Part shown: in pieces, positions 1,136 through 4,176 of the stretch
Layout of the letters: every line of letters begins with the position of its first letter
Numbering within the stretch: position 1 is the stretch's first letter
DNA from: a virus
IMG/VR virus record: IMGVR_UViG_3300008113_000708
Span: 1-35,080 of that record
DNA length: 35,080 bases
Direction: 5' to 3' (one strand)
Notes under the pieces: generated by a model
Database searches by the model: none
What the model was told of the DNA's origin: nothing
Seen by the model: the letters and a program-made list of their open reading frames with translations, nothing else
Made by a program: the position numbers and the translations under genes

Positions 1136-3164
1136 CTTTCACCTCACTTGGCTGGCTATTTTTGCTCTTGTAACCACCATCCACCTCAACCACCATATCC
1201 TTGGATATCATACTTTTTACTACTTCCCAGAATCTGTTGTTCTTAACTCCATGCTCCTTGGCTGAGTCTCTCCACTCATCGTATCCAACTGGCCGTAACT
1301 GGTGATTCTGAAACAAACTGACCTCTAGCATCACCAAGCATTCCATCACTTGCTTTTGGTTTGGCGATAGGTAGGTCTTCTTTTGCACTTGGCTAACCAG
1401 ACCGCTGATGTCTACCGCTGTCAGGTATGCACCTTTGACTGGCATCCCGTTTTTGTTATTGATGGGTAGATCGACTTGGGTGATCTGGAAGTTCTTAGGG
1501 GATGGCATTTCCGCATCCTTCATCTTCTTGGACTCGAAAGCTATGGTTTTGGTGCCTGAATCCAACTGGCACTTGTACTCAGCATCCAATGCACCCTTTA
1601 GGGCTGTTGACCCTCTGGAGCGATCCTTGTCTGCCACTCCGCTGTGGTGAACCACCATGACACAGCATTTCCAAGGTTGTCTGAGGTAAACATCTAAGTG
1701 CTGGATGAACGCATTCATATCCTGAGTCGAGTTCTCATCGCCGCCGTGATTTCTGGCTAGGGTGTCAATCACAATCATGCTTGGTATGCAATTAGCCTCC
1801 GCCGACAGCTCTTTAATCGCTTCCGCCACAACTGCCGCCTCTGTTGCGTCATACAACTGCGCTGCACGATGGGACTTGTACAACGGGACACCAGCCAGAC
1901 TTGTCCCGTTACCAATCTGCCATGCCTTCAGTCTTCTGGCTAATCCGTTGTGCCCTTCACCAGCGATGTAGAACACACTTCCCTGCTTAACGTCATGCCC
2001 ATGCCAAGGTTTGCCAGTTGCAACGCAACAGGCTAAGTCGATGGCCACGAATGACTTCCCACCGCCAGGATCGCCAAAGACCTGTGCCAAGGAGTCTGCC
2101 TCAATGTAATCATCTACCACCCACTTAATCTCTGTGAGTTCCAAACTATCTGCTCTGGTGAACTCGAATGCTAGTTTGTCTATGGCAGGCAACGCCACTC
2201 TCTCGATCTGCTCCTTGACCGCATCTATGCCTTGCAGTACATGAAGATCGTTGAAGTCTGTTGGTTTGGAAGACAAATCAGACTCCGCAAAATTAGGATA
2301 CACAATCTCACCAAACACCAGCTGCGCTGCCGCCCTTCCCTTGGTCACTCCAGCATTGCCCTCTGTGAACTGGTCATTGTCAGCACAGATCACAATCCTT
2401 GACCCTAAGAACATTTCCTTGGCACTCTTGGCCACCTTCGCCAAGTTCCCACAATCAAACGCCACCAAAGTTGTGAACCCTGTCGCTTGGTGAATGGACG
2501 CACAAGTTGCGAACCCTTCACCAATGAAGATCACCTTTCTGTTACCACGCAGTTCATAGAAACCACCCTCGATCTTGCCACCCTTCAAGAACCGCTTGTT
2601 TCCATCCGCATCGATGGTTTGATACGACAGTATTTCCCCAGAAGAATCACTAACAGGCACAACGAGCCTGCCTGCACGATCAATCTTTATCCCGTTTGGT
2701 GCTATACGTTTCCTCACCAAATAAGGATGGTCTGCTGACGCATCAGCATAAGTTGAAACCTCATCCTCTGCTTGTGTCGCAACCTCTGCCTGAGTTGCCA
2801 ACCTTTCAGCCTCCCTCTTGGCTCTGATCTCAGCGATCAACTTGTCATGCTCTAACCTCTCTGAGAAGGTCATGGCTCTACCAGTATCTGCCACCCACTT
2901 GGACTCAAAGCTAGGCTCCTTCCAACAGCCACAAACACCAACTGGAATCTTTCCACCAGTATGAAGGATGTACCAACCATCAACTGCACCCTTCTTGGAA
3001 GAGATGTGGGCCACCCTGTGAATCTGCCCATCTGGTATCAAGTCTTTAATCAACAGCCCTTGCGCCTCACAATGTCTGGTAAACGCCGTAATGGGATCAA
3101 TGAGGTCTTGGCTCTCAGTAGCAACGGCAAAGCCGTTGGGGAAAATGCTTGTTAAGTTACTCAT
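1128..3164 (-). CDS. Primase-helicase (Toprim domain plus RepA/AAA_25-type helicase)
   Basis: This 678-aa protein combines two replication activities. Residues about 210-310 form a Toprim-type primase core, with GEG around E216 and ADND at 261-264 as the acidic metal site. Residues about 345-560 form a RecA-fold hexameric helicase of the RepA/AAA_25 type, with Walker A GDPGGGKS (364-371), Walker B MIVIDT (463-468) and a HHSG motif near 506-509. An N-terminal region with C78 and C80 probably contributes to DNA or zinc binding. The C-terminal ~100 residues look like a small winged-helix. The ATG overlaps the methyltransferase stop as ATGA. It would prime and unwind the phage replication fork. 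Confidence 0.9.
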   Translation of the reverse strand: MSNLTSIFPNGFAVATESQDLIDPITAFTRHCEAQGLLIKDLIPDGQIHRVAHISSKKGAVDGWYILHTGGKIPVGVCGCWKEPSFESKWVADTGRAMTFSERLEHDKLIAEIRAKREAERLATQAEVATQAEDEVSTYADASADHPYLVRKRIAPNGIKIDRAGRLVVPVSDSSGEILSYQTIDADGNKRFLKGGKIEGGFYELRGNRKVIFIGEGFATCASIHQATGFTTLVAFDCGNLAKVAKSAKEMFLGSRIVICADNDQFTEGNAGVTKGRAAAQLVFGEIVYPNFAESDLSSKPTDFNDLHVLQGIDAVKEQIERVALPAIDKLAFEFTRADSLELTEIKWVVDDYIEADSLAQVFGDPGGGKSFVAIDLACCVATGKPWHGHDVKQGSVFYIAGEGHNGLARRLKAWQIGNGTSLAGVPLYKSHRAAQLYDATEAAVVAEAIKELSAEANCIPSMIVIDTLARNHGGDENSTQDMNAFIQHLDVYLRQPWKCCVMVVHHSGVADKDRSRGSTALKGALDAEYKCQLDSGTKTIAFESKKMKDAEMPSPKNFQITQVDLPINNKNGMPVKGAYLTAVDISGLVSQVQKKTYLSPNQKQVMECLVMLEVSLFQNHQLRPVGYDEWRDSAKEHGVKNNRFWEVVKSMISKDMVVEVDGGYKSKNSQPSEVKVD

Positions 3165-3960
3165 CAGTTTCTTTCGCTAAGAATTCGCCACGCTGTGGCT
3201 GCACAAAGTGGGACTTGTCCATTTCCAATGGCTTTAAGTCTGTCCACCCTAGAGGCCATCCCATCAACCACTCGGTCCAAGTTGGACTCAACTTTCCACC
3301 AACTGCTTTGTTTTTCTTTTTCTCTTCGTACAGGATCGCGTCCGAAAGCTTCGCACCATAAGTCATATTCGGTTTGTTGAGTTTTCTCAGGATGTAACCT
3401 CCTGATTGCGTCTCCTCCACCCTGTCCGACTGCTCCCCGCCCTCGACACAAGCCACCGTCGGTGTTGGATACATTTTCTGCAACGATCCAGATTCTTTCC
3501 CTCTGATGGTTTGCGCCAACATCGGAAGCTCCCAGCACTCCCCATTTCGCATCAAACCCCATTGAGGCCAAGTCTCCGAGAACTCTTCCAAGTCCCCTAG
3601 AAGTGAGCATTGGTGAGTTCTCCACGAAGACGAATCTGGGTTGTACTTCGTGAATGACCCGTACCATTTCTCTCCACATTCCAGATCGCTCTCCGTCGAT
3701 TCCTTCTCCCTTTCCTCCTGCTGAGATGTCTTGGCATGGAAAGCCTCCAGATACGACATCAACAATTCCTCTCCAAGGTTTTCCGTCAAAGGTTTGAACG
3801 TCATCCCAAATCGGGAAAGTTTCGAGAAGACCGTCATTTTGCCTGGCGCACAATACGCTTGCGGGATAGGCTTCCCACTCGACAGCGCAGACTGTTCGCC
3901 ATCCGAGAAGTTTTCCCCCAAGTATTCCGCCACCAGCGCCGCTGAATAAAGCCAACTCAT
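3157..3960 (-). CDS. Overlapping 267-aa protein encoded inside the methyltransferase gene (+1 frame)
   Basis: This ORF lies almost wholly within the methyltransferase gene, starting 4 bases after its ATG and running 7 bases past its stop. The protein has 10 tryptophans and clear motif-like segments: WPQWGLMRNGECW (131-143), YPTPT (164-168) and a C-terminal WLMGWPLGWTDLKPL (231-245). From memory, the segments WP..G..RNG and LNP.W.EWLMG.P.GWT recur in phage and bacterial proteins found with cytosine methyltransferases, annotated as hypothetical or methyltransferase-like. Chance survival of 267 codons without a stop is roughly 3 in a million by a simple 3/64 estimate. No start-proximal SD separate from that of the methyltransferase is evident. 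Function unknown. Confidence 0.6.
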   Translation of the reverse strand: MSWLYSAALVAEYLGENFSDGEQSALSSGKPIPQAYCAPGKMTVFSKLSRFGMTFKPLTENLGEELLMSYLEAFHAKTSQQEEREKESTESDLECGEKWYGSFTKYNPDSSSWRTHQCSLLGDLEEFSETWPQWGLMRNGECWELPMLAQTIRGKESGSLQKMYPTPTVACVEGGEQSDRVEETQSGGYILRKLNKPNMTYGAKLSDAILYEEKKKNKAVGGKLSPTWTEWLMGWPLGWTDLKPLEMDKSHFVQPQRGEFLAKETDE

Positions 3961-3964
3961 TCAT
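3164..3964 (-). CDS. C5-cytosine DNA methyltransferase (Dcm-like)
   Basis: This protein transfers a methyl group from S-adenosylmethionine to cytosine C5 in DNA. The ordered family motifs are visible: motif I LFSGAGGG (6-13), motif IV GGFPCQDIS with the catalytic Cys77, motif VI FVENSP (113-118), motif VIII QRERIWI (154-160) and motif X AIGNGQVP (245-252). At 266 aa it is short for the family, with a small target-recognition region between motifs VIII and X. It starts as an ATGA overlap with the HTH gene and ends as an ATGA overlap with the primase-helicase. Likely role: protecting phage DNA from host restriction. A second complete frame covers the same DNA. Confidence 0.92.
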   Translation of the reverse strand: MNELALFSGAGGGILGGKLLGWRTVCAVEWEAYPASVLCARQNDGLLETFPIWDDVQTFDGKPWRGIVDVVSGGFPCQDISAGGKGEGIDGERSGMWREMVRVIHEVQPRFVFVENSPMLTSRGLGRVLGDLASMGFDAKWGVLGASDVGANHQRERIWIVAENVSNTDGGLCRGRGAVGQGGGDAIRRLHPEKTQQTEYDLWCEAFGRDPVRREKEKQSSWWKVESNLDRVVDGMASRVDRLKAIGNGQVPLCAATAWRILSERN

Positions 3965-4176
3965 GCCTCCACCAGTTCAGGCCAAATCGCCTGCCAACTA
4001 CCCTGACAGAGCATCTTTCTGGTGATCTTGCCACCAGACTCTTGCTCAACCCAGACAGCCTGCCAAGCAGACATTTCTCGCCTTCCTGTCAGGCATTGGT
4101 AGATATATTGTTCTGAGAGTCCAACCTTCTCGGCCAGTTCTCTCCTCTCTTCGGGAGTGATATTAAGTGTGTTCAT
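3961..4176 (-). CDS. YdaS/Cro-like helix-turn-helix regulator
   Basis: A 71-aa protein with a predicted HTH at residues 14-36 (LAEKVGLSEQYIYQCLTGRR), typical of YdaS/Cro-type phage regulators, followed by a segment mentioning E-Q-E-S-G-G before the C-terminal tail as in YdaS relatives. It is the first gene of the leftward operon and probably controls the divergent promoters beside it, perhaps through the palindrome at 4227-4237. The ATG has no purine-rich SD and only a ~14-nt predicted leader, so translation may be nearly leaderless. Its stop overlaps the methyltransferase start. Confidence 0.8.
   Translation of the reverse strand: MNTLNITPEERRELAEKVGLSEQYIYQCLTGRREMSAWQAVWVEQESGGKITRKMLCQGSWQAIWPELVEA

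Follow-up and report, generated by a model that had tools for sequence, protein, structure and literature searches.

We identified two genes, here called frames A and B, that overlap almost entirely in a virus record of 35,080 bases (the whole stretch of DNA analysed, hereafter the window). Together they very probably encode a C5-cytosine methyltransferase made of two polypeptides, in which B is the specificity (beta) subunit and supplies the target-recognition domain (TRD) and motif IX. The analysis demonstrates coding constraint on B, alternation of the constrained frame along the gene, a conserved B start, a match between the modules of B and the TRD position, and exchange of module cassettes.

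A first-pass annotation, made from the sequence of the window alone, had reported two same-strand frames open over the same DNA, and the coordinates bear this out. B is offset by +1 relative to A; 4 nt separate the two starts and 7 nt the two ends. The features of the locus are as follows, with the supporting evidence in brackets.

3961-4176, minus strand: upstream YdaS-like HTH gene; its TGA overlaps the ATG of A (ATGA) and lies just before the ATG of B
3966-3970, minus strand: GGAGG, a Shine-Dalgarno-like site, 5 nt from the ATG of B and 1 nt from the ATG of A
3164-3964, minus strand: frame A, 266 aa, predicted catalytic (alpha-like) subunit of a C5-cytosine DNA methyltransferase (PF00145, phrog_363, Foldseek)
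3455-3964, minus strand: A residues 1-170, motifs I-VIII, constrained in the A frame; B open and only partly constrained (pLDDT, substitution classes)
3239-3454, minus strand: A residues 171-242, pass-through region, open, amino acid constraint not detectable (pLDDT <50, identity)
3167-3238, minus strand: A residues 243-266, motif X (core GNGQVP, 247-252), constrained in the A frame (identity, pLDDT)
3157-3960, minus strand: frame B, 267 aa, overlapping gene for the proposed specificity (beta) subunit (phrog_1008, ATG in 212/212 loci)
3958-3960, minus strand: start codon of B, an ATG within A codons 2-3 (AATGAG; A Asn2 is AAT in 202/202)
3526-3675, minus strand: B residues 96-145, conserved segment KW..SF.KY...SSSWRTHQC..FSETWPQWG.MRNGECW over A motifs V-VIII (alignments)
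3298-3471, minus strand: B residues 164-221, a single 'PTP' target-recognition module, YPTPTVACVEGG...YGAKLSDAI (B-frame constraint, module families)
3232-3297, minus strand: B residues 222-243, motif IX equivalent, GKLSPTWTEWLMGWPLGWTDL (identity 0.83 in B, 0.66 in A)

The likeness of the upstream gene to the YdaS HTH family (1.8e-6) is slightly below Pfam's cut-off. Given the position of its TGA, overlapping the start of A and just before that of B, coupled re-initiation is possible.

Frame A matches PF00145 in Pfam (9e-30) and phrog_363 in PHROG (1e-63), and contains C5-methyltransferase motifs I, IV (PCQ, residues 76-78), VI (ENS), VIII (QRER) and X (GN, within GNGQVP), including all those recognised in the first pass. 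An AlphaFold model built with 50 relatives has a confident core (pLDDT mostly 80-96 over residues 1-170) and a confident motif X helix (pLDDT ~80-87 beyond residue 250); residues 171-242 have pLDDT <50 and are predicted to be disordered. A Foldseek search with this model finds a SAM-dependent methyltransferase fold, with hits to M.HaeIII and M.HhaI (5e-13, ~172 columns), and the resemblance to HhaI and HaeIII is confined to the core. Judged from these matches and the predicted structure, A is a C5-cytosine DNA methyltransferase. We did not identify a TRD and motif IX of its own within the A chain, where residues 171-242 are predicted to be disordered and are constrained for openness only.

The frame under constraint switches along the gene, from A in motifs I-VIII to B in the variable region and motif IX, and back to A in motif X. 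Within motifs I-VIII, 3,989 A-synonymous changes were reconstructed by parsimony on a tree of 170 unique sequences. Only 23 of them create a stop in B, where mutation type alone predicts 221 (0.10), and 315 are silent in B, against 136 expected. A primase control gene lacks comparable stop depletion (SX/SN ~0.67, 47 alignment blocks). The excess constraint at methyltransferase synonymous sites that a genuine overlapping gene should impose is therefore present. It is uneven within B, however. Most of the first ~95 residues are, beyond their openness, conserved little better than the third frame, and the segment around THQC...ETWPQWG, with invariant G96, G135 and G140, is conserved better than these residues. 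Why B starts so far upstream remains unexplained by constraint on its first ~95 residues.

Following motif VIII, the variable region was aligned at the nucleotide level without regard to frame. Differences at A codon positions 1:2:3 number 7988:2041:1531, and thus fall mostly on the third position of B. Mean identity over independent pairs is 0.88 in B, against 0.59 (A) and 0.58 (third frame), and B identity exceeds A identity in all 57 of these pairs. The rates in this region are 0.548 (NS), 0.562 (SS) and 0.068 (SN), and stops in A are avoided (0.069). Thus, we infer that B is under purifying selection here and that the amino acids of A change as if neutral, save for the avoided stops. Out-of-frame blocks are absent from the alignment (0/508). 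Over the motif IX stretch B remains the conserved frame, whereas over motif X it is A (identity 0.83 vs 0.59 for B). The pairwise rates pool related sequences, and the tree-based counts and independent pairs correct for kinship only in part.

The start of B is more strictly conserved than that of A. The ATG of B is present in every one of 212 loci; the codon at A's position in these loci is ATG in 139, GTG in 32, TTG in 25 and another codon in 16, and in most of the last group A could start a few codons upstream. Codon choice in A follows the needs of B at two further sites. Asn2 is always AAT (202/202), as the ATG of B requires, and the Asn of ENSP is AAC in 214 of 219, as required for Thr115 of B. 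Shine-Dalgarno spacing over 164 loci peaks at 8 nt to B and 4 nt to A. The start arrangement, ATGAATGA, combines one ribosome site with two frames, and offers a testable route to two subunits from one message.

These observations bear on whether B is a gene at all. The first-pass annotation had left open that B is a ghost, a meaningless +1 frame held open by conserved methyltransferase codons. Such an origin would be compatible with the fact that the pair is seen only in overlap (all of 240 loci examined carry A motifs I-VIII) and that much of the N-terminal half of B is conserved no better than the third frame. It does not account for the tenfold depletion of changes that create B stops, the invariant B ATG, or a variable region in which B is conserved and A is unconstrained. 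Nor does it explain two loci (L177 and L181) where A terminates beyond motif VIII and its frame is riddled with stops in the module region, and B stays open across the modules, motif IX and motif X. We reject the ghost frame on the grounds of start conservation, stop depletion and constraint on B in the variable region, and consider it almost certainly wrong. The true overprinted pair, the other possibility raised in the first pass, is the one supported.

Relatives of the pair are numerous. We identified 448 by scanning IMG/VR with B, 138 phage records and six plasmid records by tblastn, and 400 in a motif-based scan of one-genome-per-species data; the best 80 of those 400 are spread over Proteobacteria, Verrucomicrobia, Spirochaetia and other groups. 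The same two-frame layout is repeated in hundreds of genes of phages and prophages, usually with one frame annotated, and public records give A alone in some cases and B alone in others. Intactness was scored with small HMMs: for A, motifs I-VIII and motif X; for B, the conserved segment and motif IX. A and B each form one uninterrupted open frame in 77 of the 80 viral loci that were sampled through B and in 72 of 80 loci from bacterial genomes. The pair is equally intact (77/80) in viral loci sampled through A of Acinetobacter phage ABMM1, which were not selected for B. Over the same length in relatives, the third frame contains 10-24 stops and B contains none or one in 76 of 81, so the openness of B is beyond chance.

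The first-pass annotation had held that B stops in relatives with an intact methyltransferase would count against B. They are rare. B has an early stop beside an intact A in two loci that are probably the same virus (L023 and L025), and the reverse, A interrupted and B open, occurs in two others (L117 and L152). The first pass had also proposed a search for copies of B away from any methyltransferase; none was found in the 240 loci, and B was never seen apart from A. In an Escherichia coli prophage (strain 23CRST032) the family A gene is annotated as a pseudogene with an internal stop. The Seabastian locus was considered as a further variant of the arrangement and rejected, as its A has a frameshift.

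What B might be is less clear from direct searches. B matches phrog_1008 in PHROG (1e-24), and the match includes the conserved segment at residues 96-145. Pfam, NCBIfam and PDB sequence searches returned no useful relative, and comparison of the B and A profiles gave no match. The AlphaFold model of B alone is poor (pLDDT 56, pTM 0.25) and too weak for a fold search; thus, it has not been shown that B has the small-domain fold of C5-methyltransferases. The segments WPQWGLMRNGECW, YPTPT and WLMGWPLGWTDLKPL pointed out in the first pass are indeed present in B, and RVDRLKAIGNGQVP and GWTDLKPLEMDKS are encoded by the same DNA, as that annotation stated. Two things escaped it: the alternation of the conserved frame, and the correspondence of the B sequence EWLMGWPLGW to methyltransferase motif IX.

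Across the family, the variable region of B consists of one to five modules (median 35 aa), each starting with a PTP-like motif; the B of the window has a single one. We identified 434 modules, which fall into 30 families and 64 singletons. Among 296 locus pairs whose motif I-VIII DNA is at least 90% identical, 218 share under half of the variable region. The modules therefore undergo cassette exchange among loci with near-identical cores. In an uncultured marine phage (KM23-C739) the module region is ~49% identical to that of the window in the B frame, and the phage is otherwise distant; this likeness suggests that B modules move between phages.

The position of these modules was traced through linking proteins. 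Gordonia-phage enzymes and their relatives are single chains in which one frame encodes motifs I-VIII, at least two PTP modules, EWMM..P (motif IX) and GNGVCP (motif X). One of these proteins, gp5 of Phinally, has hits to phrog_363 as well as to phrog_1008; in Phinally, two modules lie in frame +1 and five in frame 0. Gp78 of Mycobacterium phage Pharaoh, encoded by a separate overlapping gene, matches phrog_1008 (1e-80); over 184 aa it shares 46% identity (2e-36) with the C-terminal half of a single-chain enzyme (L280). From the single-chain order, gp78, and the L177 and L181 arrangement, we infer that the modules occupy the TRD position of C5-methyltransferases, between motifs VIII and IX. 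When window-type B is compared directly by hhalign with the single-chain family, the match is weak (E 0.011, probability 3.9%, motif IX only), so the link rests on phrog_1008 and gp78 as intermediates. In L085 and L096-L110, all mycobacteriophages, two adjacent genes are each labelled 'DNA methyltransferase' (they overlap by ~180 nt in L085). These look like a split enzyme, with motifs I-VIII in the first gene and modules, IX and X in the second.

The absence of a Pfam or PDB relative leaves room for B as an independent protein, such as a regulator, nuclease or counter-defence factor, whose gene simply happens to overlap that of a methyltransferase. We consider this very unlikely. B is never found without A, proteins of the B type align with the TRD-IX-X half of single-chain enzymes, and A has no folded TRD or constrained motif IX of its own. 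Because EWLMGWPLGW corresponds to motif IX, B is most probably the half of the enzyme that A lacks. The suggestion of the first pass that B is perhaps a partner of the methyltransferase thus holds as to the pairing, but not as to a merely associated protein.

If B is that missing half, two chains are not the only way in which it could be supplied. Ribosomes might leave A for B once motif VIII is translated, possibly return ahead of motif X, and in this way make a single-chain product. The order of I-VIII in A, TRD and IX in B and X in A would then describe one enzyme with two frame changes, and some actinophages have the same order within one frame; in Mycobacterium phage loci there is no B start near the start of A. 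However, the B frame has its own invariant ATG at good Shine-Dalgarno spacing and is free of stops from that ATG onward, and A is kept open through the TRD, which would be unnecessary if ribosomes left A. Programmed frameshifting is possible, though we regard it as unlikely.

We therefore return to the two-polypeptide enzyme. A would be the catalytic subunit, with motifs I-VIII and X forming the SAM-binding and catalytic large domain and its middle merely read through. B would have its own start, an ATG lying 4 nt further downstream in the +1 frame, and would supply the small domain (target-recognition module and motif IX) in trans. The two would assemble into one active enzyme, and swapped or added B modules would direct methylation to other DNA sequences. 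Translation of B, the A-B complex, methylation activity, specificity and an anti-restriction role are all inferred, in the absence of expression or methylation data. The enzyme probably protects phage DNA from host restriction, a role inferred from the lack of a recognised restriction enzyme alongside. Beside two enterobacterial copies no endonuclease was recognised as a restriction partner; both lie in phage-like contexts (NinX, MT-A70, DndB, exonuclease).

Two-subunit C5-methyltransferases are known. The beta gene of M.EcoHK31I (YGGCCR) is reportedly nested in the alpha gene in another frame. According to the published description, the large subunit of this enzyme has motifs I-VIII, X and the predicted TRD, its small subunit has only motif IX, and both are needed (PMC3404938, citing Lee et al. 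1995). The frame-resolved constraint in the window pair likewise places I-VIII and X in A and IX in the second polypeptide. Unlike the predicted TRD of M.EcoHK31I (PMC3404938), the region at the TRD position is conserved in B and unconstrained in A. The literature placement of the M.EcoHK31I TRD runs contrary to the B-borne TRD that we infer. The window family also differs in consisting of orphan phage enzymes with one to five exchangeable modules per B protein. In M.AquI (CYCGRG), motifs I-VIII are in alpha and IX-X in beta, and the variable region is divided, with its distal part in beta (PMC3404938). This split resembles the L177, L181 and Pharaoh variants. The window pair differs from it in keeping motif X in A and in genes that overlap over nearly their full length, and part of the M.AquI variable region is in alpha. 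The multispecific C5-methyltransferases of Bacillus phages are single chains, unlike the window family, in which the module array is in a separate overlapping protein. These enzymes (SPR, phi3T and others) have tandem target-recognition domains and several specificities (PMC8936443).

No description of phage A/B pairs was found in the literature searched. Relative to the motif distribution of M.EcoHK31I, the apparent novelty is the TRD in B; tandem TRDs themselves are already known. We somewhat favour a broader reading, in which a TRD and motif IX encoded in trans are overprinted in the enzyme's own gene under A-B-A constraint, with each protein reading through the stretch that is functional in the other, and are widespread in phages and prophages, with M.EcoHK31I an isolated known example whose TRD would also be in beta.

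Selection on both frames of overlapping genes has rarely been demonstrated in dsDNA phages. With ~240 natural replicates and three clear zones, the trade-off between overlapping frames becomes directly measurable. The results also suggest that many of the phage proteins annotated as 'DNA cytosine methyltransferases' represent only half of an enzyme. Gene callers drop one frame, and expression of the annotated ORF alone would yield an inactive or non-specific protein. The phrog_1008 family, labelled 'DNA methyltransferase', holds TRD-IX-X halves such as Pharaoh gp78; the label hides the absence of catalytic motifs I-VIII, and such proteins, if active at all, would serve as a partner subunit. 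The arrays of modules would represent a large and so far unexploited reservoir of methylation specificities that can be exchanged.

Some actinobacterial phages depart from these layouts. Rhodococcus phage ReT1v-2 has a third arrangement, in which B consists of modules only and ends before motif IX, and the A frame carries EWMMGLPAGWVTD (IX) and GNGVCPQQA (X). Two actinophage contigs related to Gordonia phage Phinally (L283 and L284) have a long in-frame insertion in A after motif VI (ENVRGLLSATAH) and before motif VIII. This insertion recalls the ShiLan type, in which an HNH endonuclease is hidden out of frame (PMC11855218).
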